From NCBI GenBank assembly GCA_017538365.1, contig JAFYIZ010000033.1, forward strand, positions 1 to 64,000: a DNA stretch of 64,000 nucleotides, written 5' to 3'. A model generated the notes under the pieces. The model was not told the DNA's origin, did no database searches, and saw nothing but the letters and a program-made list of their open reading frames with translations. This document shows positions 28,557 to 41,558 of this stretch, piece by piece (within the stretch, counting starts at the first letter, position 1; the number at the start of each line of letters is the position of its first letter). The stretch is from a bacterium (GTDB taxonomy: Bacteria; UBP6; UBA1177). A program made the translations under genes and the position numbers.

Positions 28557-29399
28557 ATGCAAAAAGTTCTTAGTATTGAAGAACATAAACAAGTTCAACT
28601 TGATATTTTAAAGTTTGTTGCTGGTTTTTGTGAGAAAAAAGGTTTGTGTTATTTTTTAGCAGACGGGACTTTGCTCGGTGCGGTTCGTCATAAAGGGTTT
28701 ATTCCTTGGGATGATGATATTGATATCAGAATGCCAAGACCTGATTATAACAGAATGAGGCAGATTTTTAATGAGGAATGTAAAGATTCTCATTATCATC
28801 TGGTTGATCCGAGGGATAATGATGCTCATCATTATTTTATAAAAATCATAGATACACGAACTATAAAAATAGAGCCTGAACAAGACTATTCAACAGGCTT
28901 TTTAGGAGTCGACATAGATGTGTTTCCTATAGAGGGTTCCCCCGAAAATGAGGAAGAATTTTTGAAATGGGGGCGGGAAATAAGAAGTCTTAACAAAGCG
29001 TATGCATATAAAAAACGCCCACTGTATATATCAGTAAAAGCAACAATAGGAACTTATGTAAAGAAGAGGGTTCACCCTAAGTGGTGCTGGTTGTTTTTGT
29101 CGGCTTCTCGTATTGCAGAAAAGGTAATTGCTTTAGCAGACAGGTATATTTACGGTGAAGGCACATATGTGAGTTTTATCGGGGCCGGTGATCTGTTCAG
29201 GGTTCCTTACGAATGTTATAAAGATTATGTTATGATGAAGTTCGAAGACGCAGAATTCAGGGTGCCTGCCGGATATGATGCGGCTTTGACTAAACAATAC
29301 GGTGATTATATGAAGTTGCCGCCAATAGAAAAACAGGTTACACATCATGCCAACAATGTTTTTTGGAAAGATGAAGAGGAGGAAAATAAACATGCTTAA
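28557..29399 (+). CDS. LicD-family phosphotransferase, first copy
   Basis: This encodes 280 residues. The LicD hallmark [20 protein letters not shown] lies near 39-58, with the nucleotidyltransferase-like Asp triad. IDVFPIEG and the C-terminal YGDYMKLPP complete the family pattern. LicD proteins transfer phosphocholine or similar phospho-alcohols from CDP donors to sugars. TAAGGAGATTCAAT precedes ATG. It overlaps the aminotransferase gene by 8 bases, so it belongs with the donor-making genes that follow. Confidence 0.9.
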
Positions 29400-30480
29400 T
29401 TTTACTGTAGGACCGGTAATGTCCAGCGAAACTGTTCGTGCGATAGGTGCTGAGCAGGTTCCTTATTTCCGCACTCCGGAATTCTCGGAATTGATGTTTG
29501 AGAATGAAAGGCTTGTCAAAAAATTCGCGAAAGCTGACGATAATGCAAGGGTATGCTTCATGACGGGCTCGGGAACGGCTTCAATGGAAGCTGCAGTAAT
29601 GAATATTTTTACTGAAAACGATAATGTGCTTGTTGTTGATCCAGGCAATTACAGTTTCGGACATCGTTTTAAAGAAATGCTTGAGATCCACGGAATTCCT
29701 CACACTATCATTAAACCTGAATTCGGTCGCAGTGTTACTGCCGGACAACTTGCTGAATATGACGGGAAGGGTTTTACAGGATTTTTGGTAAATCTTGATG
29801 AAACTTCTGTCGGCGTGTTGCATGATATAAAATTGATAAGCGATTTCTGCAAGCGGAACGATATATTTTTGGTAGTTGACTCTATAAGTTCCTTCCTTTG
29901 CGATCCTTTCAATATGAAAGAGCTGAATGTTCAGGCTATGATCACCGGTTCGCAGAAAGCTCTTGCGTGTCCTCCAGGAATATCGCTGATAGTTCTTTCT
30001 CCAGCTGCTGTTGAGCGTGTTTACCAGAATAAGCCGAAAACAATGTATCTTGATCTGAAACTTGCTCTGAAAAACGGCGAACGCGGTCAAACTCCGTTTA
30101 CTTGTGCTGTCGGTATTCTGCGTCAGATAAATGCAAGGTTAAAAGAAATCGATGCTGCCGGCGGTGTTGAATCAGAGAATACGAGAATCGGCGGTTTGGC
30201 AGAATATTTCCGCAACAAAATTAAAGAGTTGGATCTGCCGTTTAAAGTCATATCGCACGATCTTCCTAATGCTGTCACTCCGCTTTCTCCGAGAGAAGGC
30301 GTTTCAGCGCACGAGATTTTCAATATTCTTAAAGATGAATACGGAATCTGGATTTGTCCGAACGGCGGTGAATTTAAAGACACTCTTTTTCGTGTAGGTC
30401 ATATCGGTGCGCTTGAGAAAAAGGATTTTGATACGTTGCTTGAAGCATTGCTGGATATGAAAAGAAGATCGCTGATCTAA
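29392..30480 (+). CDS. Class V aminotransferase, related to 2-aminoethylphosphonate transaminase
   Basis: This encodes 362 residues from ATG 29392, behind GAGGAGG; an upstream ATG at 29347 lies inside the licD gene. [11 protein letters not shown] near the start and [15 protein letters not shown] near 62 bind the cofactor phosphate. [12 protein letters not shown] provides the Asp, and [12 protein letters not shown] near 183-194 carries the PLP lysine. This resembles PhnW-type transaminases (aldehyde plus alanine to amine). No PEP mutase is in the window, so the substrate need not be a phosphonate. I infer it makes an amino-alcohol phosphate or similar head group for the adjacent cytidylyltransferase. 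Confidence 0.85.
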
Positions 30481-30496
30481 TGTGAAGGAGTTTTTT

Positions 30497-31774
30497 ATGA
30501 TAAAAGTTATTACTTACGGTACGTATGATCTGCTTCATTACGGTCACATCAGACTTTTGGAGCGGGCAAAAGCTCTCGGGGACTATCTGATTGTCGGAAT
30601 TACGAGCGACGATTACGATAAAACCAGAGGTAAAATAAACAATCAACAGTCTTTGATGGAGCGTGTCGCGGCGGTAAAGGCAACAGGACTTGCAGATGAG
30701 ATTGTAGTTGAAGAATATGAAGGTCAGAAAATTGACGATATTCGCAGACTCGGTGTCGATATTTTTACAGTAGGTTCAGACTGGGTCGGGAAGTTCGATT
30801 ATCTGAACGAATACTGCAAAGTCGTTTATCTGCCGCGGACGGAAGGTGTTTCCAGCTCGGAAATCAGGGCGGAAAAGAGAAAACTTCTTATCGGAACTAT
30901 CGGTGGAAACGGTGGTGTCCGCAGAAAATTCATAAAAGAAACGGAGTTTGTCAACGGAGTGGAATACAGAGAGTGCGGTGATGATCTGCAGGGTGTTGAT
31001 GCGGTCTATATAGTGTCTCATCCGAAAAACCATTACGATGATGTGAAGAGGGCTCTGCTTGCCGGGAAACACGTTCTATGTGAATCTCCTGTAGCTTTGA
31101 CGGTCGAAGGATATAGGGAACTTATGGATTTGGCTCATGATAAAGGGCTTATTCTCACAGATGCGATAAAAACAGCTTATTCAACAGCTTATTCAAGACT
31201 GCTTGTCGTTGCTAAAAGCGGCCGGATCGGGGATATAATTTCTGTAGATTCTGTATGCACCAGTCTTGCCGACGGGGCAGGAGAATCAGGGATTGATCTT
31301 TCCTTGAAACAGAACAGCATCTGTGCATGGGGTCCTACCGCGATGCTTCCGATTTTCCAGCTTCTCGGAACGAATTATAAAGATGTAAGGATAACAACGA
31401 AAATTATAGACGAAAAACTCAATTACGACGGTTTTACAAAAATAGATTTTGTTTTTGACAATGCTGTGGCTTCTGCCAAAGTCGCCAAAGCCGCAAAAGC
31501 TGAAGGCGAATTGGTAATTACAGGAACAAAAGGTTACATCTATGTTCCGGCGCCATGGTGGAAAACAGATTATTTTGAAGTGAGATTTGAGAATCCCGCC
31601 GATAACAAAAGATATTTCTATCAGCTTGACGGAGAAGGTATCCGTTATGAAGTCGTTGCGTTTGCGAAGGCTGTCGAAAGCGGAAAGAAAAATTTGTATG
31701 TGGAAGACAAAATTTCTGAAAAAATTGTTGGCGTAATAGAAGATTACAATAATTTTAACTATTTGAAAATTTAA
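30497..31774 (+). CDS. Fusion of TagD-like cytidylyltransferase and Gfo/Idh/MocA oxidoreductase
   Basis: This encodes 425 residues from ATG 30497, behind AAGGAG. Residues 1-130 are a glycerol-3-phosphate-cytidylyltransferase-like domain: GTYDLLHYGHIRLLERAK with HxGH, and RTEGVSSSEIR as the C-terminal signature. Residues from about 135 form a Gfo/Idh/MocA-type dehydrogenase: a Rossmann region with VDAVYIVSHPKNHYDD, GKHVLCESPVALT (the EKP-like segment, here ESP) and LTDAIKTAYS. The fusion would activate a phospho-alcohol with CTP and oxidise or reduce it or a related polyol. It lies between two licD genes and after the aminotransferase, suggesting a CDP-activated head group for glycan decoration. 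Confidence 0.85.
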   Translation: MIKVITYGTYDLLHYGHIRLLERAKALGDYLIVGITSDDYDKTRGKINNQQSLMERVAAVKATGLADEIVVEEYEGQKIDDIRRLGVDIFTVGSDWVGKFDYLNEYCKVVYLPRTEGVSSSEIRAEKRKLLIGTIGGNGGVRRKFIKETEFVNGVEYRECGDDLQGVDAVYIVSHPKNHYDDVKRALLAGKHVLCESPVALTVEGYRELMDLAHDKGLILTDAIKTAYSTAYSRLLVVAKSGRIGDIISVDSVCTSLADGAGESGIDLSLKQNSICAWGPTAMLPIFQLLGTNYKDVRITTKIIDEKLNYDGFTKIDFVFDNAVASAKVAKAAKAEGELVITGTKGYIYVPAPWWKTDYFEVRFENPADNKRYFYQLDGEGIRYEVVAFAKAVESGKKNLYVEDKISEKIVGVIEDYNNFNYLKI

Positions 31775-31779
31775 AAACA

Positions 31780-32628
31780 ATGAATAACGCAAAAGAATTG
31801 ACTCCGGAACAGTTCCGAAAAATGCAGTTGACAGAATTGGATATGTTGGTGGAATTCGATAGAGTATGCAGGAATAACAATATCAATTATGTTTTATTCG
31901 GAGGAAGTCTTTTGGGAGCTGTCCGCCATAAAGGATTTATTCCATGGGATGACGATGCAGACATCGGAATGTTAAGGGAGGATTATGACAGATTTAAGGA
32001 ACATATGAATGAAATGAATCCTGATATTTGCTATTTCCAAGACCATGATACTGATCCTGAATACAGATGGGGTTACGGAAAACTTCGTAGAACTGGAACA
32101 AAATATGTTCGTGTCGGTCAAGAACATTTGAAGTGTAAGACAGGAATTTTTGTGGATATATTCCCTATGGATGATATACCGCTGAGTATTGTCGGTCAGG
32201 TTCTCCAAGATTGGTACTGCTTTTGTATGAGAAAAATTATGTGGTCGGAGGTGGCTAAATACAACACAAAAGGATTTTGGAAATTGTGGTTTACGTTGTT
32301 GTCCAAAATTCCTGTTTCAATACCTTTCTCGGGATTAGATCGATATATAAGGAAAAGTAAAAATGAAACACCTAACAGGGTTAGATGTTTGGCATTTCCT
32401 GCTACGGGAACGCTTTATAAGAAAAATCCGATTACTGAAAGATACGGCATGCCAAAATCCTGGTTTACAGACAGGACAGAGTATTTGTTCGAAAGTCAGC
32501 AGTTTTTCAGTTCAAAAGATTATGATGTGGTGTTGAAATACATATATGGGGATTATATGAAACTTCCCGATGAAAATGACAGAGAGCAGCACTCTCCTTT
32601 TTCTGAAATTAAATTCCAAGATGAATAA
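31780..32628 (+). CDS. LicD-family phosphotransferase, second copy
   Basis: This encodes 282 residues. [21 protein letters not shown] near 41-61 is the catalytic motif; FVDIFPMDDIP and [11 protein letters not shown] follow as in the family. It begins 5 bases after the cytidylyltransferase fusion. The ribosome site is weak. It is clearly diverged from the first and third copies outside the motif, so the three may use different acceptors or act at different sugars. The GNAT gene overlaps or abuts its end. Confidence 0.9.
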   Translation: MNNAKELTPEQFRKMQLTELDMLVEFDRVCRNNNINYVLFGGSLLGAVRHKGFIPWDDDADIGMLREDYDRFKEHMNEMNPDICYFQDHDTDPEYRWGYGKLRRTGTKYVRVGQEHLKCKTGIFVDIFPMDDIPLSIVGQVLQDWYCFCMRKIMWSEVAKYNTKGFWKLWFTLLSKIPVSIPFSGLDRYIRKSKNETPNRVRCLAFPATGTLYKKNPITERYGMPKSWFTDRTEYLFESQQFFSSKDYDVVLKYIYGDYMKLPDENDREQHSPFSEIKFQDE

Positions 32629-32638
32629 TGAGGATGTG

Positions 32639-33448
32639 ATGATAAATAAGTGCGGTAAAGAATATGAAACCATTATTTTTAGCTATATAGGACAAGACTA
32701 TCCGGAGTGTCTCTATTTATATCTCAATTTGAAAAAATACGGTTTTGATAACACAACAACTGATGTTTATATTCAACGGGAAAACAATGTAATAACAGCT
32801 GTTTTGCTGAAATATTACACATGTCTTCATGTCTTTTCCAAAGATAATGATTTTAATTCTGCAGAGTTGGGAATTTTCATTGAACAAAATGGATTCTCGA
32901 TGGTTTATTGTATGTCTTCAACAGCAAGCCGAATCTATGAATGTCTGTCAAAAGAAACATTGGATCTGGCGACATTAACAACTGGCTGGGTAGCAAAAAT
33001 TACAAAAATAGACAAACAGCCGAAAGGTATTTCTGTTAAGGCCTCCAAACAAGACTTTGAACAAATCGTAAGATTGATTTATGAGGATGAAGATATCGGG
33101 AAATCTTATAAATACGAAATGCTTGCATGTCAGTTGGAAGAAAGGAACAGTGAAGGTTATGCCAGAAATTTAGTTATAAAGAACGGAGATTTGGTTATAG
33201 CTCATGCCTGCACTAATGCAGAAATTGACAAAATAGCTGTTGTAGCCGAACTGCTTGTAAGGGAAAATTTTAGAAGACAGGGGTATGCTTCTGAAATATG
33301 GCGGGATTTATGCGGGCAGCTGCTGCTTGAAAATAAAGAAGTCTATTCATTTTATTATTCGGAAGAATCCAGAGCTTTGCACCGTAAAATAGGCTTCAAC
33401 GAAGTTTGTGAGTGGGCAAAGATCGTGATTCAGCAAAAAAATTCATAG
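32639..33448 (+). CDS. GNAT-family N-acetyltransferase
   Basis: This encodes 269 residues from ATG 32639, with GAGG 6 bases upstream; ATG 32621 inside licD is the alternative. The C-terminal part has the acetyl-CoA-binding segment VRENFRRQGYASEIWRDL (R-x-x-G-x-A variant) and a final ALHRKIGFNEV typical of GNAT enzymes. The N-terminal 150 residues resemble a second degenerate GNAT fold. In this block it may acylate an amino group, perhaps the amine introduced by the class V aminotransferase; this is inference. Confidence 0.75.
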   Translation: MINKCGKEYETIIFSYIGQDYPECLYLYLNLKKYGFDNTTTDVYIQRENNVITAVLLKYYTCLHVFSKDNDFNSAELGIFIEQNGFSMVYCMSSTASRIYECLSKETLDLATLTTGWVAKITKIDKQPKGISVKASKQDFEQIVRLIYEDEDIGKSYKYEMLACQLEERNSEGYARNLVIKNGDLVIAHACTNAEIDKIAVVAELLVRENFRRQGYASEIWRDLCGQLLLENKEVYSFYYSEESRALHRKIGFNEVCEWAKIVIQQKNS

Positions 33449-33473
33449 TTCTGCGAAATCGGGGGATCGTTTT

Positions 33474-34352
33474 ATGGAAACATCACAAACAACAAGTTAT
33501 GAAAAGATTTGGAATATAGAATTGGATTTGTTCGAAAAATTCAAGAGTATCTGCGCAAAATACAATCTTGCATATTGTGCATCTTCGGGAACTTTGTTAG
33601 GCACAGTTCGTCATAGAGGTTTTATTCCATGGGATGATGATATGGATTTGTTTTTACCGTGGCAGGATTATGTTAAGTTTATGGAAGTAGCACCCAGAGA
33701 ATGTCAATATCCTTACTTTTTCCAAAGTTTTTTGACTGATCCTGAAAGCGAGGCAAGCGCGAGCAGATTGAGAAGAAGTGATACTACAGGCTTTACGAAA
33801 TGGGAACATGAAAATATTACAGGAAAGGATTATGACAGAGGTATATTTATCGATATATTCCCATTGTTCAATGTTCCTGATTCAGAGTCTGAAAAAAATA
33901 TTCAGAAAGAGTCCATTATGTTCTTTTGGAAGTGTATGCGAGGATATAATGCTGTCTGTCAGAAACAAGCGTGGGGGGGGGCAAATAAAGATTACGAACA
34001 ATATATCCCCTATTACAAAAGTGTATGCAAATCTATGAGTATAACTGATATAAAACGGGCATATTTGAATGCATGTGCAATGATTGATACCGAGACTAAA
34101 GAGGTCGGGGCCACATCTTCAAGAATTCATTTGTCTACATTGATGTGGCCATCAGAGTGGTATTCTTCATATGTAGATCTTCCATTTGAAAATACAACGA
34201 TAAAGTGTCCTGTTGAATATGAAAAAGTTTTGGAAAAGCAATACGGAAATTGGCGTGTGCCTGTTAAAAATGGCGCCAGACATGATTTTGCTGCTATTGA
34301 TCCTGAAACTCCATGGAAAGACTACGATATGGCATCGGTAAAGAATAGGTAA
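33474..34352 (+). CDS. LicD-family phosphotransferase, third copy, with poly-G tract
   Basis: This encodes 292 residues. [21 protein letters not shown] near 38-58 is the LicD motif, followed by DRGIFIDIFPLFNVP and a C-terminal YGNWRVPV. The reading frame runs through nine consecutive G at 33973-33981 (Trp167-Gly-Gly). With eight G the frame would end about 19 codons later; with ten G it would stop within three codons. Length changes in the tract would therefore switch the enzyme off, as in phase-variable surface genes of other bacteria. It is the last glycan gene before the defence island. Confidence 0.88.
   Translation: METSQTTSYEKIWNIELDLFEKFKSICAKYNLAYCASSGTLLGTVRHRGFIPWDDDMDLFLPWQDYVKFMEVAPRECQYPYFFQSFLTDPESEASASRLRRSDTTGFTKWEHENITGKDYDRGIFIDIFPLFNVPDSESEKNIQKESIMFFWKCMRGYNAVCQKQAWGGANKDYEQYIPYYKSVCKSMSITDIKRAYLNACAMIDTETKEVGATSSRIHLSTLMWPSEWYSSYVDLPFENTTIKCPVEYEKVLEKQYGNWRVPVKNGARHDFAAIDPETPWKDYDMASVKNR
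33973..33981 (+). repeat. G9 homopolymer inside the third licD gene
   Basis: Nine consecutive G in an AT-rich coding region. The present length keeps the gene open, and a one-base change in either direction truncates it near residue 170-190 of 292. It is a candidate slipped-strand mispairing site. Confidence 0.8.
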
Positions 34353-34415
34353 TAAGTGGTGAAAGGGAAACTAAATGAGTGAGGTGGTGTTGGGGGGAAT
34401 AATAGGAGAAGATTT

Positions 34416-35339
34416 ATGACAAGAGAAATTGTAGAATTCTTTCAGGCTGTTAATAAGGATTGTCCAGACAATATTGTGCATATATATTTCAGCGAAAAAC
34501 GAGGAAATAAATATAGAACATTCAATCCACAGATGTCCAATGAACTTCAAAAAAAGATTCTTGAGTTGTTGCTGCCGCCTCTATTAGAATTATTACAACT
34601 CCCGATAGTTCACTATAATCCCGTAGGTGTTCTTGATGAGGAAAATGAGCTTATTATTTCAACTCAGGTTGATAGTGTCGAAACTTTTAAAAATAGTTTG
34701 AAATCAGATACTTGCTATACGGATATGAGTTTGATCAAAATGAGCAATATTAGCTTCTATTGTGTTGAAATATCTTATAACAACAAAAGTGCTTATCTCT
34801 TTAGGCAGTTCGCGAAAATGAGTCGTCTTAGAAAAGGAATCCTTGGTCAATTGGTAAACAATACTCTGGCAGAACTTGACAATAATTTCTTAGGTATTGA
34901 TGATCGTACCGATATGGTTCTCATGGACGATACATTAATAATTATTAACCACATTTCGCTCGAAAGAGTATTTAATTATCGCGACAAATTTCAAGAAATG
35001 ACAAATCTAGCAATTGGACGCATTGTCGTTGAAGGTAAAATGACAAATGTCGAGCAATTTTCTGAAGATTGTCTTAAGGATGTGCGAATTATGAAACGTT
35101 TTACGGAGTTGATGTCAAAGGATAGTTTGCCTCTTTTTTTTGATAATTATGACCGTGTTCCGCAAATTGTTGATGCTCTAAATTTGAATATAAAGTTTGA
35201 TAAAGAAGGAAGAATGGTTTATGAAGATAAATCTCAACTTTACCATATAGTTCACTTATTCTCTGATTCTTATTTTAAATCGCTGATCGCGGAACGCGTT
35301 GGTGTTATTGAGCTTGAGGGAAAAATTAATGCTGACTAA
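34416..35339 (+). CDS. kwaB: KwaB-like DUF4868 protein of a Kiwa-type defence system
   Basis: This encodes 307 residues with no membrane segment. The C-terminal half has the DUF4868 pattern: VFNYRDKFQEMTN, FSEDCLKDVRIMKRF, then IKFDKEGRMVYEDKSQLYHI and LFSDSYFKS near the end. DUF4868 defines KwaB, the cytoplasmic DNA-associated subunit of Kiwa anti-phage systems. A four-helix membrane protein is encoded next, overlapping by 11 bases, as expected for KwaA. In the Kiwa operons I recall, kwaA comes first, so the reversed order here is noteworthy. TAGGAGAAG precedes the ATG; no clear promoter is seen upstream. Confidence 0.8.
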   Translation: MTREIVEFFQAVNKDCPDNIVHIYFSEKRGNKYRTFNPQMSNELQKKILELLLPPLLELLQLPIVHYNPVGVLDEENELIISTQVDSVETFKNSLKSDTCYTDMSLIKMSNISFYCVEISYNNKSAYLFRQFAKMSRLRKGILGQLVNNTLAELDNNFLGIDDRTDMVLMDDTLIIINHISLERVFNYRDKFQEMTNLAIGRIVVEGKMTNVEQFSEDCLKDVRIMKRFTELMSKDSLPLFFDNYDRVPQIVDALNLNIKFDKEGRMVYEDKSQLYHIVHLFSDSYFKSLIAERVGVIELEGKINAD

Positions 35340-35883
35340 ATTGTCGTGGTTGGCAATATATTTTGCTTCTTATTTCATAGTGTATTTCTTAATCCTTGTG
35401 GTTTTAATATATGAACATTGTACATCGAGTGATTATATAGAATATCTGCTTTCAAATAGTGTTGATTGGATTTGTATGATTCTTTTGCTGTTTTTATTGT
35501 TGTCGCTTGTTATTGCAAAAACAGTGAAAAATGCTGAAATGAATACACGAATAAAGGATGTCCCGCAAAAAAATATCACATTAGATGTTTGTCCATATTT
35601 CTTGCCGCAGGTTATAACTTGTGCAACCTTAATTTTTGCTGATTGGTGGATTTTAATTGATGTAGTGATATTTGTGACTTATGGGGTTTTTTTTGTTAAA
35701 TCAGAGAAGGTTTATACGGCTCTTTTGTTTGTAATACCGCTCGGAAATAAAATTTATCAATCTGGAGATAAAATAATAATAACACGATACTCTGAAGAGG
35801 AAATGCGAATGGTTTTGGAAGATAGCCCTGATGGAATTGAAGCAAGAATATTAACGAAAAATGTGTTTTATGTGAGAAAATAA
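35329..35883 (+). CDS. kwaA: KwaA-like four-helix membrane protein
   Basis: This encodes 184 residues from ATG 35329, with GAGGG upstream and an 11-base overlap with kwaB. Four hydrophobic segments (about 7-27, 43-64, 88-105, 107-125) are followed by a soluble C-terminal domain of about 60 residues (GNKIYQSGDKIIITRYSEEE). Size and topology match KwaA, the inner-membrane sensor of Kiwa. KwaA proteins are poorly conserved, so the assignment rests largely on the neighbouring DUF4868 gene. Confidence 0.68.
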   Translation: MLTKLSWLAIYFASYFIVYFLILVVLIYEHCTSSDYIEYLLSNSVDWICMILLLFLLLSLVIAKTVKNAEMNTRIKDVPQKNITLDVCPYFLPQVITCATLIFADWWILIDVVIFVTYGVFFVKSEKVYTALLFVIPLGNKIYQSGDKIIITRYSEEEMRMVLEDSPDGIEARILTKNVFYVRK

Positions 35884-35901: not shown

Positions 35902-36201
35902 ATGCCTGAATACACTACCGTTGCAACAATCACCAAAATTGAAAAAGCGAAGGTTTATATCAAGGGCTTTGGCAAATACCTTTACGAGGATTCCAATAAA
36001 AAACAGTGGAATATTTTGGAAGGTAATGGGGCCCCTAAATTGTTGCCAACAGATAGACTTCAAATGATTGACAAGGATTTGGTTGATAATTCTGTTGAAG
36101 TGCAACTCCTTGCACTATCAATGTTTCACAAGAAACCGCTGAAATTGACGATTGAAGAAGACGGCAAAAAATATTTTATTACTGCTGTCGAGGTCGAGTA
36201 A
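35902..36201 (+). CDS. Small protein coupled to the FRG gene, unknown
   Basis: This encodes 99 residues behind AAGGAGAAAAAT. I recognise no family. The N-terminal half is probably beta-rich (TTVATITKIEKAKVYIKGFG), followed by a short helix and a C-terminal strand pair (PLKLTIEEDGKKYFITAVEV), which could be a small barrel. Its stop overlaps the FRG start by one base (TAATG), so the two are coupled. A role as antitoxin, inhibitor or sensor for the FRG protein is possible but only inferred from the layout. Confidence 0.7.
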   Translation: MPEYTTVATITKIEKAKVYIKGFGKYLYEDSNKKQWNILEGNGAPKLLPTDRLQMIDKDLVDNSVEVQLLALSMFHKKPLKLTIEEDGKKYFITAVEVE

Positions 36202-37139
36202 TGACGGAATACCACGATATTTACTCTGTTGCCGATTACATTGAAGCGATAAAAAATTTCAAGCTTTACGGTGTTAATGGTTCACGCAGTAAAGGTGTCC
36301 GACTGTATTATCGTGGTGAACCGGCTGATTATGGAGAAACAGCGGGAACTCCTTCAATTGCTCGAGGCGGATGGTTGGAAGGCAACAGCGAATCAACTTT
36401 GTTCCGGGAATGCGAGCGCCTATTGCCGCGTGAATTCGCCAACTGCAAGACGACTTTCGAAAAATTGGTGCTTATGCAGCATTATCAGATCCGCACGCGC
36501 TTGCTGGATGTGTCATTTGGACCTTTGCAGGCTCTGTTTTTCGCGCTTTATATTGATCCAAAGAGCAAACAAGACGATTCTGGCGACAGTATAGTTCTGG
36601 TGTATGAAATCCCGGATGAAGCCATTTGTTCGTGGCATTCCGACAAGGTGAGCGTCATTTCAAACATCGCCGTTTACGCATACGATGATTTGGATATCTG
36701 GGATTTACCGTATAATGAAGAATCAACACAGTTGTTCGATAAAAAGGATTCTTTTAATGAAAATGAAAAAATACAGCAATTAGTTCATGAAATCAGGGCC
36801 GAAAAACCCTATTTCATAAACAGGATCATAAAAAGTCACATGGAATCTATTTACTGTGTGCATCCGTTACTGGATAACCCTCGTATCAGGGCACAACAAG
36901 GTGCTTTCCTTCTGTTCGGAATGAACGGTGACAAACATCACCTTGCGACACTTGAATCAAACAAGGGTCTGAAAATCAGCATGGCTAGAATCCGCATTCC
37001 GCAAGGAGCTAAACCCAGGATCCGTGAAGAATTGGAACTGCTCAGCCAAACGGTAGACACTGTTTATCCTGACTGGCAGGGTGTTTCTGATTATTTTGAA
37101 CATTTTTACGGGAAAACAGCGGAAGAGTTTTATAAATAA
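36201..37139 (+). CDS. FRG-domain protein, putative defence effector
   Basis: This encodes 312 residues. The FRG domain spans about 30-150: RLYYRGEPADYGE with the conserved Arg-Gly, PSIARGG, ECERLLPREF, and LMQHYQIRTRLLDVSFGPLQALFFAL, the strongest family motif (QHY-x-PTRLLD type, here IRTRLLD). The C-terminal part includes RIRAQQGAFLLFG, also typical. FRG proteins are frequent in phage-defence islands, and as I recall the fold may relate to ADP-ribosyltransferases. Its exact biochemistry is uncertain. It is preceded by the coupled small protein and followed by a remnant gene and a new promoter. Confidence 0.85.
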   Translation: MTEYHDIYSVADYIEAIKNFKLYGVNGSRSKGVRLYYRGEPADYGETAGTPSIARGGWLEGNSESTLFRECERLLPREFANCKTTFEKLVLMQHYQIRTRLLDVSFGPLQALFFALYIDPKSKQDDSGDSIVLVYEIPDEAICSWHSDKVSVISNIAVYAYDDLDIWDLPYNEESTQLFDKKDSFNENEKIQQLVHEIRAEKPYFINRIIKSHMESIYCVHPLLDNPRIRAQQGAFLLFGMNGDKHHLATLESNKGLKISMARIRIPQGAKPRIREELELLSQTVDTVYPDWQGVSDYFEHFYGKTAEEFYK

Positions 37140-37155
37140 TAGGCAGAGAAAATAA

Positions 37156-37266
37156 ATGAATTCAAAACAAAGAAGCATAATTTTAGATTTTCTTAAAGGC
37201 CTGGCTATTGTCGCTGATCCCTTGAAAATTTCAGATATTTCACTAAAATCTTTCCCCGCCTTATAG
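37156..37266 (+). pseudogene. Remnant of an acyltransferase-3 gene start
   Basis: A 36-codon frame begins MNSKQRSIILDFLKGLAIVA, which is like the N-terminus of membrane acyltransferase-3 proteins that O-acetylate surface glycans. The similarity ends there and the frame stops at 37264. The downstream part contains the promoter of the next operon. This suggests that a glycan-locus acyltransferase was cut when the downstream defence module was inserted. It rests on about 19 residues. Confidence 0.5.
37222..37249 (+). promoter_or_regulatory. Promoter of the AAA/DUF3226 pair
   Basis: TTGAAA (37222-37227), a 16-bp spacer and TAAAAT (37244-37249). The ATPase start is 40 bases downstream. It lies within the acyltransferase remnant. 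Confidence 0.55.
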
Positions 37267-37288
37267 GCTGTTATATGGAGGTGTTCCT

Positions 37289-38371
37289 ATGTTGGAAAGT
37301 ATTAAGTTCCAAAATTTCCGCGGTTTTAAAGATTTGGATTTGTCCGGTCTTTCGCAAATTACATTGTTAACCGGAAAGAACAGTGCGGGAAAGAGTTCTG
37401 TTCTTGAAGGGATTTTTCTGTTGATGGGATATGCTTTGCCGGATAATCTTGAGAAAATAAGGATGCTTCGCGGTTTGCCGGCGGCTTCTGATATAACACA
37501 GTTGTGGGAGTCATTGTTTTATAAGTTCGACACGTCGAAAGCGATTGAAATATCTGCGAAGTGCCAGGGTAAGCACTTGGATCTCAAATACGAGAGGGAC
37601 GATGCCTTCTCAACTTTGGATACAAATCAAAATGTTCTAAATACTTTTGTTGTGTTCAGCAGTTCTGCAGCATCATATTATACTCTCCACTATAGTTTTA
37701 CGGCTGATGAAGCGGCTCAAAATGGTCATTTGTTCCTTAATCCTGCCATAGGTCCCAACGGTGCTCTGGCGATGACGAGAAAAAATAACAAGGTGGGTTT
37801 TGAGACTCCGAATACGCAAATTGTAAAATTCGTTTCTGTCGGAAGGATGGATGATCTTGAACTTGCAGGATGGCTGGGGACTCTTAACTTAAGGGGAGAT
37901 CATCAGCTGATTGTTGATGCTCTCAAAATCATAGATCCGGATATTGTTGATATCCAGACAGTGGTTCAACAGAGGTACACCCAGCTTTATCTCATAACAA
38001 AAGACTCGTCGATTCCTTTAAAACTTGCAGGAGACGGTATTTGCAAGCTTCTCTACTGTGTGCTGTATGTTTTATGCAACCAAAATTCAATTGTTCTGAT
38101 CGATGAGATAGAAAACGGATTTCATTATTCCATGCAGGAATCTTTCTGGAATACTCTTGCGAAAGCGGCTAAGAAAAGCAATACGCAGATTATCGCAACA
38201 ACTCACAGCTACGAGTGCATAAAACATGCTGTTGACGGTATCGCCAATGCCGGAATGCAGGACAAATTCAGTCTTCACCGGATTGACAGAATCGGTGAGG
38301 AGAACAGAGCTACTCAATATTCAGGAGAACTTGTGAAAGATGCTGTGGATTCTTTGATGGAGGTCAGGTAA
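37289..38371 (+). CDS. RecF/OLD-like AAA ATPase of a two-gene defence module
   Basis: This encodes 360 residues. FQNFRGFKDLDL, then Walker A GKNSAGKSS near 30-38, are typical of SMC/RecF-type AAA_15/AAA_21 ATPases. Near the C-terminus are LAGDGICKLL (signature-like), Walker B IVLIDEIENGFHY and ATTHSYECI with the switch His. No TOPRIM domain is present in this protein; the TOPRIM-like DUF3226 protein follows with a TAATG overlap. The pair resembles a split OLD nuclease, analogous to PARIS (ATPase plus DUF4435). A GGAGG site lies upstream of ATG. Confidence 0.85.
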   Translation: MLESIKFQNFRGFKDLDLSGLSQITLLTGKNSAGKSSVLEGIFLLMGYALPDNLEKIRMLRGLPAASDITQLWESLFYKFDTSKAIEISAKCQGKHLDLKYERDDAFSTLDTNQNVLNTFVVFSSSAASYYTLHYSFTADEAAQNGHLFLNPAIGPNGALAMTRKNNKVGFETPNTQIVKFVSVGRMDDLELAGWLGTLNLRGDHQLIVDALKIIDPDIVDIQTVVQQRYTQLYLITKDSSIPLKLAGDGICKLLYCVLYVLCNQNSIVLIDEIENGFHYSMQESFWNTLAKAAKKSNTQIIATTHSYECIKHAVDGIANAGMQDKFSLHRIDRIGEENRATQYSGELVKDAVDSLMEVR

Positions 38372-39039
38372 TGGCAGACAGAGAAAACAAATCTATTGTA
38401 AAAGGGATGCAGCACCTGATTTTGTGTGAAGGGAAAGATGCACAGCTTTTCATGATTTATTATCTGAACAGTAAAGCTTTAGCGGATAATAAACAATATT
38501 CGGAAGTAGTTCAGGTTGAAGATTTCGGCGGTAATGAACAATTGAGTTCGGCGCTAAAATTGTGGTCAAAGGATCCAAATTTTCAAAATCTGAAATCGCT
38601 TGTCGTTCTTCGAGATTCTGAAACAGATGCTCAAGGTGCCGTAGACAGTATTAAGACTGCTTTTAAGAAGGCAGAATTGCCGGTTCCGTCATGCCCCCAT
38701 CAATTTGAAACTGACGGCACTTTGAAGACAGGTTTTCTTTTGTTTCCGGAATGTTCTTCTGATCTTAAAAACGGGACCCTTGAAGATTTATGTCTTTCTG
38801 TTTTAGAGGAAAGCGGAGTAACCGGAATAAGCGAAATCGATAGTTTTCTTTCAGATTTGGAAAAGCGTGAGATCAGAATTTTTCCACGTCGTTTTAAAAC
38901 GCGGTTGCACACATATTTTTCCATAACGGATGATTTTGTGTCACTCAAAATAGGAGAAGCCGCTAAAGCTGGAGCATTTGATTGGAATAGTCCTAAGCTT
39001 GATCAAATTAAGAGTTTCTTGGAAGAGATGATAAGGTAA
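38371..39039 (+). CDS. DUF3226-like (TOPRIM-fold) partner of the ATPase
   Basis: This encodes 222 residues. HLILCEGKDAQLF near 12-24 supplies the TOPRIM Glu, and SLVVLRDSETDAQGA near 80-94 supplies the Asp pair, as in DUF3226. The C-terminal half is helical. TOPRIM domains in such pairs cut nucleic acid when the ATPase partner senses phage. It overlaps the ATPase stop by one base, so the proteins are probably made in fixed ratio. DUF3226 assignment is by motif and length, not by search. Confidence 0.75.
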   Translation: MADRENKSIVKGMQHLILCEGKDAQLFMIYYLNSKALADNKQYSEVVQVEDFGGNEQLSSALKLWSKDPNFQNLKSLVVLRDSETDAQGAVDSIKTAFKKAELPVPSCPHQFETDGTLKTGFLLFPECSSDLKNGTLEDLCLSVLEESGVTGISEIDSFLSDLEKREIRIFPRRFKTRLHTYFSITDDFVSLKIGEAAKAGAFDWNSPKLDQIKSFLEEMIR

Positions 39040-39126
39040 CTCAAAGTATACTTCCCTCAGGAAAACCTAACACTTTCAATTCTCCAAATCCTGAAAATCG
39101 GTGAGGTTTTGCCCTTGTTTTTCAAA

Positions 39127-39147
39127 TTTTGTGCAAAAAGCACAAAA
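39127..39147. other. Inverted repeat downstream of the DUF3226 gene
   Basis: TTTTGTGC, a five-A loop and GCACAAAA form a perfect 8-bp stem. There is no T-run after it on the plus strand, so it is a poor terminator; it could be an operator. Confidence 0.4.
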
Positions 39148-39161
39148 CAAATGCCTCTTAA

Positions 39162-39176
39162 GGAACATTTTGTTCC
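39162..39176. promoter_or_regulatory. Perfect inverted repeat upstream of the AbiL-like promoter
   Basis: GGAACA, three T and TGTTCC make a 15-bp palindrome that ends 16 bases before the -35. The position suits a regulator-binding site. No regulator gene is adjacent, so autoregulation by the AbiL-like proteins or a host factor is conceivable. Confidence 0.4.
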
Positions 39177-39192
39177 GAAAATAAGTTTTGTC

Positions 39193-39220
39193 TTGACATT
39201 TTTGCAAAAGATCGTATGAT
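39193..39220 (+). promoter_or_regulatory. Promoter of the AbiL-like operon
   Basis: Consensus TTGACA (39193-39198), 16-bp spacer and TATGAT (39215-39220), followed by GTGGCGTTTTGTTTGG. Because the -10 overlaps an upstream ATG at 39216, the coding start must be further down. Confidence 0.75.
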
Positions 39221-39248
39221 GTGGCGTTTTGTTTGGAGGATTGTGAAG

Positions 39249-40646
39249 ATGAAAGATGCAACAGTAAGATTGGAAGGTATAGAAATCAGGAATTTCAAAA
39301 ATGTTTGCTATGGCAAGCTGAATTTTGAAAATTCAAGGACATATTCTGATGCGAGCATTTTGGGTTTATATGGTCAAAATGGTTCAGGTAAAACAGCTTT
39401 GATCGATGCAATTGCACTTCTTAAATTTGCTCTTGCCGGTCAGGAAGTTCCGCTCCAGTTCGCCGATTATATCAATATCGATGCTTCTTTTGCTAACTTG
39501 AAATACTTCTTTAAGGTCAGGAATCTTGAAATAGAAGCGGAATATAATGTTGTTTACGAATTCAATATCCGTAAAGAAATAAGTGAATCTTCCCAGAAAT
39601 ACAAGGCAGTTATATTTGATGAGGTGCTTTCATATTCGTATGAATCAAAAGATGAAAAATTAAAACTTCAATCTCTCATAGATACATGCACTGACGATGT
39701 TTTTGTTCCTGTCAGCAAATACAACGAGCTTGTCGGAAGCTGCAAGGATAGTAAAACAACTTTGATCGCGCATAAAAAATTTGCACTTATTTCTTCAAAA
39801 TCTTTCGTGTTCTCAAGCGAATTGCTTGATGTTATTCGCGTGAACTGCAAAGAAGCGCGTCATCTTTTCCTGATCAAAAGCTTGGTTTTGTATGGTAATT
39901 TCGAGCTTTTTGTAATCAATACGGCAAATTCAGGGATGATTACTGTCAACGGACTTCCGTTGAATTTTAAATATGAAGAAAAGGGAGAAATATCAATAGG
40001 AAATTTCATAATAAATTTGAACGAGCCGACATTTTTTTCTGAAAAAGAGCTTGATGTCGCAAAGAAAGTCATAAAGAATATGAATATTGTCCTTGCCAAA
40101 CTTGTGCCTGGATTGACGATCGGTGTCAGGGAACTCGGCACAGAACTCGCGGAAGATGCGTCTAAAAAAGTCAAGATCCAGCTGGTCTCAATGAAAAATG
40201 ATAAAGACATTCCTTTAAAATACGAATCCGAAGGAATTAAAAAAATAATTTCCGTCCTGCAGCTTCTGATCCTTGTTTACAATAATCCTTCGACTACTGT
40301 CGCGATCGATGAGTTGGATTCAGGGATCTTCGAATATCTTTTGGGTGAACTCCTTAGAATTATTTCAAAAAAAGGTGTGGGGCAGTTGATTTTCACTTCA
40401 CACAATCTTCGTCCGCTGGAAACGATTGATCGCGGCTTCATTGCTTTCACAACAACAGATCCAAAAGAACGTTATATTCGTCTTGCAAACATTAAAACCA
40501 ACAACAATTTACGTGATTTTTACTATCGCGATATTGTTCTTGGCGAGCAGAGAAAACCCGTTTATGATTCCACTAACAATTATGAAATTGATTTAGCATT
40601 CATGGAAGCAGGAGAAACATCTATAGAAACTGGAGATAACAAGTGA
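39249..40646 (+). CDS. AbiLi-like AAA ATPase
   Basis: This encodes 465 residues from ATG 39249, behind TTGGAGG; GTG 39243 is an alternative. EIRNFKNVCYG leads to Walker A LYGQNGSGKTALIDAI near 42-57. The central third is specific to this family. KYESEGIKKIISVLQLL is signature-like, and Walker B is VAIDELDSG, with TSHNLRPLE following. AAA ATPases of this type paired with a small TOPRIM-like protein form AbiL-like and RloA/RloB-like abortive-infection systems. The next gene starts at its stop (GTGA overlap). No DNA-binding domain is obvious. Confidence 0.8.
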   Translation: MKDATVRLEGIEIRNFKNVCYGKLNFENSRTYSDASILGLYGQNGSGKTALIDAIALLKFALAGQEVPLQFADYINIDASFANLKYFFKVRNLEIEAEYNVVYEFNIRKEISESSQKYKAVIFDEVLSYSYESKDEKLKLQSLIDTCTDDVFVPVSKYNELVGSCKDSKTTLIAHKKFALISSKSFVFSSELLDVIRVNCKEARHLFLIKSLVLYGNFELFVINTANSGMITVNGLPLNFKYEEKGEISIGNFIINLNEPTFFSEKELDVAKKVIKNMNIVLAKLVPGLTIGVRELGTELAEDASKKVKIQLVSMKNDKDIPLKYESEGIKKIISVLQLLILVYNNPSTTVAIDELDSGIFEYLLGELLRIISKKGVGQLIFTSHNLRPLETIDRGFIAFTTTDPKERYIRLANIKTNNNLRDFYYRDIVLGEQRKPVYDSTNNYEIDLAFMEAGETSIETGDNK

Positions 40647-41346
40647 CTCGTAAGAAAATAATTTTTGTCATTGTTGAAGGCTCTTCGGACGAAACAGCCC
40701 TTGGTGCTATTTTACAAAACATCTTTGATGTCAATCAAGTACATATTGAAGTTGTTCACGGCGATATTACAACGCAAAACGGGGTCATGCCGCATAATAT
40801 TCTGTCAAAAATAGGAGACATGGTAGCCGAATACATCAAGCAAAACAGATATCTTAAGAAATCTGACTTCGAAAGGATTATTCATATCGTCGATATGGAC
40901 GGAGCATATATTCCGAATGAAAATATTATTGAAGATGCCGACTTAGAAAAAACATCCTACTCTCTGAAAAACATAACTACAAACAATAAGTCGCATATTG
41001 TTGAGAGAAATAAGCAGAAAACTGCAAATATCAATAAGATATGTTCTTGCCATGAAATTAGGAAGAAGGAGATGATTCCTTATAAAGTTTTTTACATGTC
41101 TTGCAATCTTGATTTGATCATGTTCTACATGACAAAATCAACAGCACTGATGCTGAGAAAAAGCTGGATTCCAGAAAATTTGCGAAACAATACAAAGAAA
41201 ATATTCATGAATTTCTTTCATTTATTTCTGACTCAGATTTTTCTGTGAAGATGTCTTACGAAGAATCGTGGAAGTTTATCAAGCAGGGATTGCACTCGCT
41301 TGAACGGCATACAAATTTCGGTATTTGCTTTGAAAAGAATCTTTAA
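40643..41346 (+). pseudogene. AbiLii-like TOPRIM-type partner, disrupted by a 5-bp duplication
   Basis: GTG 40643 overlaps the ATPase stop. IIFVIVEGSSDETALG gives the TOPRIM-like Glu, and IIHIVDMDGAYIP the Asp pair, as in AbiLii/RloB-like proteins. The frame reads well up to SCNLD, then diverges and ends at 41248. Removing one unit of the exact tandem duplication TTGAT-TTGAT at 41109-41118 restores DHVLHDKINS..., which runs on to a stop at 41346 and gives about 232 residues ending SLERHTNFGICFEKNL. The effector is therefore probably inactive in this sequence, or switchable, or the duplication is an assembly error. A further short frame (41354-41428, FPEEVIYKNFKELLEVQENW...) follows and is unassigned. 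Confidence 0.75.
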
Positions 41347-41461: not shown

Positions 41462-41558
41462 GAGGAGTATAATGGCCAAACATTTTTGGACAGAAGAATC
41501 CTCTCGCAATTCCCAAAAATTTAAGTATTATAACGTGTTTTTGACGGAGGAAAAATGA
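41462..41558 (+). other. Short ORF or leader before the UDP-sugar dehydrogenase gene
   Basis: AGGAG at 41448-41452 precedes an ATG opening a 32-codon frame (MRSIMAKHFWTEESS...) whose TGA overlaps the next ATG (ATGA at 41555). TATAAT at 41468-41473 lies inside it, so it may instead be a promoter region. It may be a leader peptide, a gene remnant or chance. The rest of 41347-41554 shows only the unassigned short frame mentioned with the AbiLii-like gene. Confidence 0.3.

Follow-up and report, generated by a model that had tools for sequence, protein, structure and literature searches.

The lic1 locus of Haemophilus influenzae carries tetranucleotide repeats, and these lie in licA, not in licD. 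The enzyme PptA belongs to another family than LicD. In the pathogenic Neisseria, the gene pptA holds a poly-G tract within its coding region, and the phosphorylcholine on pilin is phase-variable (PMC10434233). Poly-G tracts have been surveyed in Campylobacter with a cut-off of seven G or C, yielding 1944 tracts in 77 genomes, of which G9 is the commonest length and most lie inside open reading frames (PMC6321876). LicD-like transferases are also found in phosphonate tailoring clusters (PMC6697681).

Here, we analyze a tract of nine G in licD3, a LicD-family gene of a bacterium from an uncultured-looking phylum, and compare it with these systems. The window is the whole stretch of DNA analyzed, 64,000 nucleotides long. 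Like pptA, licD3 has a G tract inside a gene for a phospho-decoration of the surface. The poly-G gene described there is pptA and not licD (PMC10434233). Variation is documented for pptA, which encodes another enzyme, and is a candidate property of the licD3 tract. With Campylobacter, the locus shares the G9 length and the position within an ORF; the abundance of tracts reported there (PMC6321876) contrasts with a single coding tract here, which is at chance level. The clusters described for phosphonate tailoring likewise bring together a PhnW-like aminotransferase, a CTP_transf_like domain and LicD (PMC6697681), but no PEP mutase was found among the 10 proteins scanned. The decoration would be of the lic type, as in H. 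influenzae lic1, but the window genome has no choline kinase above cut-off. Our analysis favors a coincidence of codons over an evolved switch for the licD3 tract and points to two other kinds of poly-G tract in the same lineage as stronger leads.

The tract and its reading frame

The tract lies in the last of six neighboring genes on the forward strand. The features are as follows.

28557..29399, + strand: licD1, with no G or C run longer than 5
29347..30480, + strand: class-V aminotransferase, nearest to PhnW/AepZ, below cut-off
30482..31774, + strand: cytidylyltransferase domain fused to a Gfo/Idh/MocA oxidoreductase domain, nearest to the glycerol-3-phosphate type, below that model's cut-off
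31780..32628, + strand: licD2, in which all G and C runs are shorter than 5
32570..33448, + strand: GNAT-family acetyltransferase
33474..34352, + strand: licD3, LicD-family phosphotransferase-like protein of 292 aa (Pfam LicD 5.4e-39; model pLDDT 84; best PDB matches FKRP)
33973..33981, + strand: nine-G tract, TGG GGG GGG G (W167-G168-G169-A170)
33986..33988, + strand: TAA, first stop if the tract has ten G (171 aa), by frame reading
34036..34038, + strand: TGA, first stop if the tract has eight G (187 aa), by frame reading

The original prediction placed nine G in an open licD gene and expected eight or ten G to truncate the protein near residue 170-190. Both points held when coordinates and frames were read again: licD3 runs GCG TGG GGG GGG GCA across the tract within an intact ORF of 292 codons, and its product would end at 187 aa with eight G and at 171 aa with ten. 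With 6 or 12 G, the downstream frames stay open (291 or 293 aa). The tract is thus in frame and above mutable length, as judged by reference lengths from other genera, and a change of one unit gives a truncated product; both are properties of contingency loci. No other G or C run in the window reaches seven. The next-longest is a G6 at 34392-34397, between licD3 and the KwaB gene. Viral contigs scanned with the tract flanks for same-species alleles returned none.

Frequency of G runs in the genome and the genus

The assembly is a 49-contig draft of 2,320,231 bases that is 97.6% complete. The licD3 tract is its only G run of at least nine; two more runs have exactly eight, and the genome holds no second coding tract of at least eight G. 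The number of runs of at least nine expected per genome is 3.4 under a base-composition model and 0.15-0.19 from the decay of run lengths. Redrawing synonymous codons (56 window ORFs, 57,015 bases, 300 redraws) gives 0.023 per window, or ~0.85 when scaled to the genome. With one run observed against 0.15-3.4 expected, such tracts are not over-represented in the genome. Similarly, the three overlapping G7 matches of the window were reached by 15 of 100 dinucleotide shuffles.

Within licD3 itself, a run of at least nine arose at a frequency of 0.0067 (2 of 300 codon redraws, ~0.7%), but the gene was chosen for its tract. One run of this length per genome is ordinary, and its location in licD3 is striking for the gene alone. 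GGG is the rarest glycine codon in the window ORFs (101 of 1218), and the pair GGG-GGG is used in one of 69 Gly-Gly pairs, that of licD3.

Across the genus, there are 12 G runs of at least nine, once overlapping windows are merged, in 10 of 15 genomes. We read 11 of the 12, the remaining one, in G001, being left out. Six belong to one intergenic element (L036 was assigned to it by eye only and is absent from the listing of the 141-base query described below), two lie outside convincing genes (L043 and L044), and three are coding. The coding tracts are those of licD3, a hexapeptide acyltransferase (L037, in G003) and a penicillin-binding protein from a sister species (L038, in G004), and all three read TGG GGG GGG G, encoding Trp-Gly-Gly and then Ala or Val. 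Switching is not a likely reason for the tracts in the acyltransferase and the penicillin-binding protein. Because the same TGG GGG GGG motif is present in a penicillin-binding protein, an unlikely switch, codon coincidence can produce a G9, and it is mainly because of this shared Trp-Gly-Gly codon pattern that we rank coincidence first for licD3. Separately, a 50-G run (L142, at the end of G021:C147) stops exactly at the contig end and is most likely an assembly artefact.

The gene cluster and the LicD3 protein

At E 0.001, LicD matches in the assembly are limited to the three licD genes (28557, 31780 and 33474). A draft Oscillospiraceae genome from the goat reticulum has the same six gene kinds in the same order (L008:5004-10870), and the proteins of 28557-34352 are, in order, 35, 63, 77, 82, 58 and 55% identical to those of L008; the counterpart of the cytidylyltransferase-oxidoreductase fusion is also of nearly equal length. 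The arrangement suggests a six-gene glycan module common to two phyla, with transfer between them.

The chemistry of this module was approached through family models. None of the five cluster proteins compared with NCBIfam scored above an equivalog cut-off, the nearest names being glycerol-3-phosphate cytidylyltransferase for the fusion protein and PhnW/AepZ for the aminotransferase. By its curated cut-off, TIGR03301 finds no AEP transaminase (148.7 of 360.8 bits), and a choline-transferase model was matched at 83.7 of 225 bits, far under its cut-off. A search of the assembly for choline kinase gave a single match to PF01633, which we take to be the family that includes LicA, at 18.5 bits against a cut-off of 29. 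The original prediction regarded licD3 as a phosphorylcholine-type LicD; this attribution finds no support, given the lack of a choline kinase above cut-off, a neighboring cytidylyltransferase nearest to the glycerol-3-phosphate type, and the breadth of the LicD family. Going by its family, LicD3 would probably transfer to a glycan a group activated as CDP or CMP derivative. Rfam, at gathering cut-offs, reported nothing in the window.

LicD3 has a single Pfam LicD domain (PF04991) at residues 27-258, which scores 135 bits against a gathering cut-off of 22.6 and spans profile positions 1-227 of 227. The AlphaFold2 model, built from 12 aligned sequences, has a mean pLDDT of 84. All 13 PDB matches found by Foldseek at E <=0.001 are FKRP (E 2.9e-6 to 2.3e-5), with a TMq of only 0.41-0.48, and a sequence profile for licD3 likewise ranks FKRP first. 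FKRP therefore matches LicD3 in both family and fold, and the title of FKRP structure 6kam names CDP-ribitol. In the model, W167 ends the helix 138-167 and residues 168-171 form the next loop, with a mean pLDDT of 64 over the block 161-170; this loop probably tolerates change. Truncation at 171 or 187 aa would remove the C-terminal strands of the model (210-276), together with F238, which is invariant in the alignment, and L253, Y257 and G258, which are nearly so.

We compared 13 homologues (L008, L010, L011, L012, L013, L014, L056, L057, L015, L017, L018, L021 and L022). The tract glycines are unconserved across them, and 12 of the 13 have no G or C run longer than 5. The exception, L021, has a G7 at another site. 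This licD gene comes from a sister species (G009:C49), and its G7 falls at codon 35, in a conserved N-terminal motif. L008, the closest relative found (~54-55% identity), reads R-R-G-E-G-K-A-V opposite Q-K-Q-A-W-G-G-A of licD3 and has no G run above 4; the remaining homologues show gaps or unrelated residues at the site. The original prediction had named free replacement of the GGGGGG codons by other glycine codons as refuting a switch; the replacement of the tract codons in L008 goes halfway towards this, in a comparison that spans species and not strains. L008 was the one relative returned by a scan of genome contigs, and 400 genomes from its family, a subset of a larger group, added two homologues at <40% identity (E <=1e-40).

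The DNA of the tract also matches GCGTGGGGAGGGG in L008 at an offset of seven bases from the codon register. No other off-register 13-mer of the gene matches at 11 or more of 13 positions. A compensated frameshift at the tract relative to L008 was considered on this ground and is not used here: codon-pair shuffles gave matches of at least 12 of 13 in 31 of 2000 trials, and rotations gave them in 10 of 261.

Poly-G tracts elsewhere in the lineage

The two G8 runs of the window genome, both outside the window, are copies of one element.

G000:C3:11379-11386 (L004): element copy with G8, intergenic
G000:C35:91439-91446 (L007): element copy with G8, intergenic

These runs and several others in the genus have common flanks, AATAAAATCAAAT(A/G)GTT...TTTTTC-G8/9-TAAAATTTT-CTCAATAAAAATCGG. 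Searching the 28 phylum genomes with the two flanks and a free middle gave 15 places, spread over nine genomes that all belong to the genus (9 of its 15, and none of the 13 others); a reversed control gave none. The tract at these places is G8 in seven, G9 in four, G7, G6 and an interrupted run in one each, and absent in one. A 141-base query gave 79 matches, some of them partial, in 14 of 15 genus genomes. Among 53 element loci read, 50 distinct copies cover the tract, and 31 of these have a G-rich tract of at least 5 (G9 in 4, G8 in 11, G7 in 3, G6 in 4, G5 in 2, interrupted in 7), pure G runs being confined to lengths of 5-9. The other copies have a poly-T of varied length in its place or no homopolymer. 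Downstream of 44 of the 50 copies lies a gene whose product begins, as judged by eye, like a lipoprotein or with a signal peptide, and several lipoprotein families are represented; the gene survey covered only the same strand downstream, which partly builds the shared strand into the result, and both strands were listed for 12 loci. In the window, the element was not found (best match E 0.08).

A promoter scan of L004 placed TTGCCG-16-TAAAAT across the tract, though weakly, with 2 sites where shuffles give 0.8. Of 27 anchorable copies (four more were unanchorable), 26 have a TTA or TTG hexamer at an equal offset; for 14 of the 27, the script had chosen other hexamers. Measured from the hexamer through the tract, the stretch has a length of 14-18 in 24 of the 27 copies, and the sequence that follows is TAAAAT in 12, TAATTT in 6, TGATTT in 5 and another in 4. 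Given this offset and stretch, the tract would occupy the spacer between -35 and -10. We regard the element as promoter-like and as a candidate for transcriptional phase variation. Its nearest known analogue is the poly-G tract inside the porA promoter (PMC3639595). A narrow literature search, which says little, found nothing joining poly-G promoters, lipoproteins, phase variation and the rumen.

The length of the tract varies among closely similar copies. In three genomes, L103, L106 and L111 have flanks that are 98-99% equal and downstream proteins that are 99% equal, with tracts of G4AG4, G8 and G5AG3, respectively, and L106 has three extra bases beside the tract. Across 244 similar pairs, we counted 191 differences in tract length, or ~0.10 per base when the tract is taken as 8 bases, against 1131 flank indels in 29,560 bases. 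Because this tract rate is only ~2.6 times the flank rate, as obtained with a gap-permissive aligner and non-independent pairs, we call the element length-variable and not hypermutable.

Tracts of another kind occur in G020 and G022, two same-order genomes from family f3, in lipoprotein-like genes with leucine-rich repeats (LRR), the repeats being recognized by a Pfam LRR_4 match under its cut-off. Here the G tract comes shortly after a conserved Cys, at residue ~70. Of six such tracts typed by script, one is a G10 in frame (L141), three are G9 out of frame (L028, L050 and L141), one is a G14 out of frame (L139), and one is a G15 that sits at a contig edge and lacks its upstream part (L135). 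A seventh tract, the G10 of L140, stays in frame for 190 codons. L139 carries a second run, of G9. The combination of one position, several lengths and one open frame class, read here across paralogues in draft genomes, would be the usual signature of translational phase variation. Both the promoter element and the LRR lipoprotein tracts are stronger leads than the licD3 tract.

Interpretation of the licD3 tract

We think that the licD3 tract is probably incidental, a mildly slippage-prone coincidence of codons, and favor this over an evolved switch. LicD3 would be an ordinary LicD-family nucleotide-dependent phosphotransferase encoded by the 3'-most gene in a surface-glycan module of six genes, and a Trp-Gly-Gly in a variable loop that uses the rare GGG codon twice would give the nine G. 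The tract would be expected to slip more often than the rest of licD3, producing rare LicD3-minus cells with a protein of 171 or 187 aa. The genome encodes MutL (469 bits, the cut-off being 180), and this mismatch repair would weigh against frequent slippage. Presumably no selection keeps the tract for switching.

A possible alternative, to which we give real but lesser credence, is translational phase variation, in which slipped-strand mispairing would switch licD3 between full-length (6, 9 or 12 G) and truncated forms and thereby vary a surface-glycan decoration. A surface-glycan gene with an in-frame intragenic G9 has the look of a contingency locus, eight or ten G would delete the C-terminal strands and the four conserved residues given above, and the chance of such a run in licD3 alone is small. 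Intragenic poly-G switching is known for the phosphorylcholine transferase gene pptA (PMC10434233), and meningococcal tracts of at least 8 are mostly variable (PMC5084427). Poly-G lengths differ within the genus and the order, so changes at G8-9 do occur in the lineage, and the LRR lipoprotein genes of same-order genomes are convincing candidates for intragenic poly-G switches, which raises the prior for such switching in this lineage. However, the tract is missing from the relatives read, chance suffices genome-wide, the licD3 tract has no coding companion of similar length in the genome, and mutL is present. The Trp-Gly-Gly pattern and the chance counts together make phase variation less likely for licD3.

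A broader proposal, which we consider doubtful, is a lineage-wide poly-G contingency comprising promoter-spacer tracts, intragenic LRR tracts and licD3, by which lipoproteins and one glycan decoration would switch independently. An assembly or sequencing error, by which the true tract would have another length with the gene usually off, or the run would be shorter, is very improbable: the genome is a draft and homopolymers are prone to sequencing error, but we disfavor an artefact because with nine G the ORF runs unbroken through 292 codons, and both sides of the tract align with L008 at the protein level.

By itself, the licD3 tract is a plausible, weak candidate, and its kind is well known. 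Its greater importance is as a lead to poly-G tracts in a small, uncultured-looking phylum, sampled here by 28 genomes that are all drafts in many contigs. If the promoter and lipoprotein tracts switch, they would make up a surface contingency system outside the usual pathogens, and metagenome reads could reveal this directly.

Genes downstream of licD3

Defence-like genes follow the glycan cluster.

34416-35883: KwaB then KwaA (Kiwa-like), overlapping, directly after licD3
36201-41248: FRG/PDC-S15, AbiLi/PDC-M38A (with a weak PDC-M38B match), and another ATPase with a small partner

The genes at 36201-41248 separate the glycan cluster from a gene at 41555, which by eye resembles a nucleotide-sugar dehydrogenase gene.
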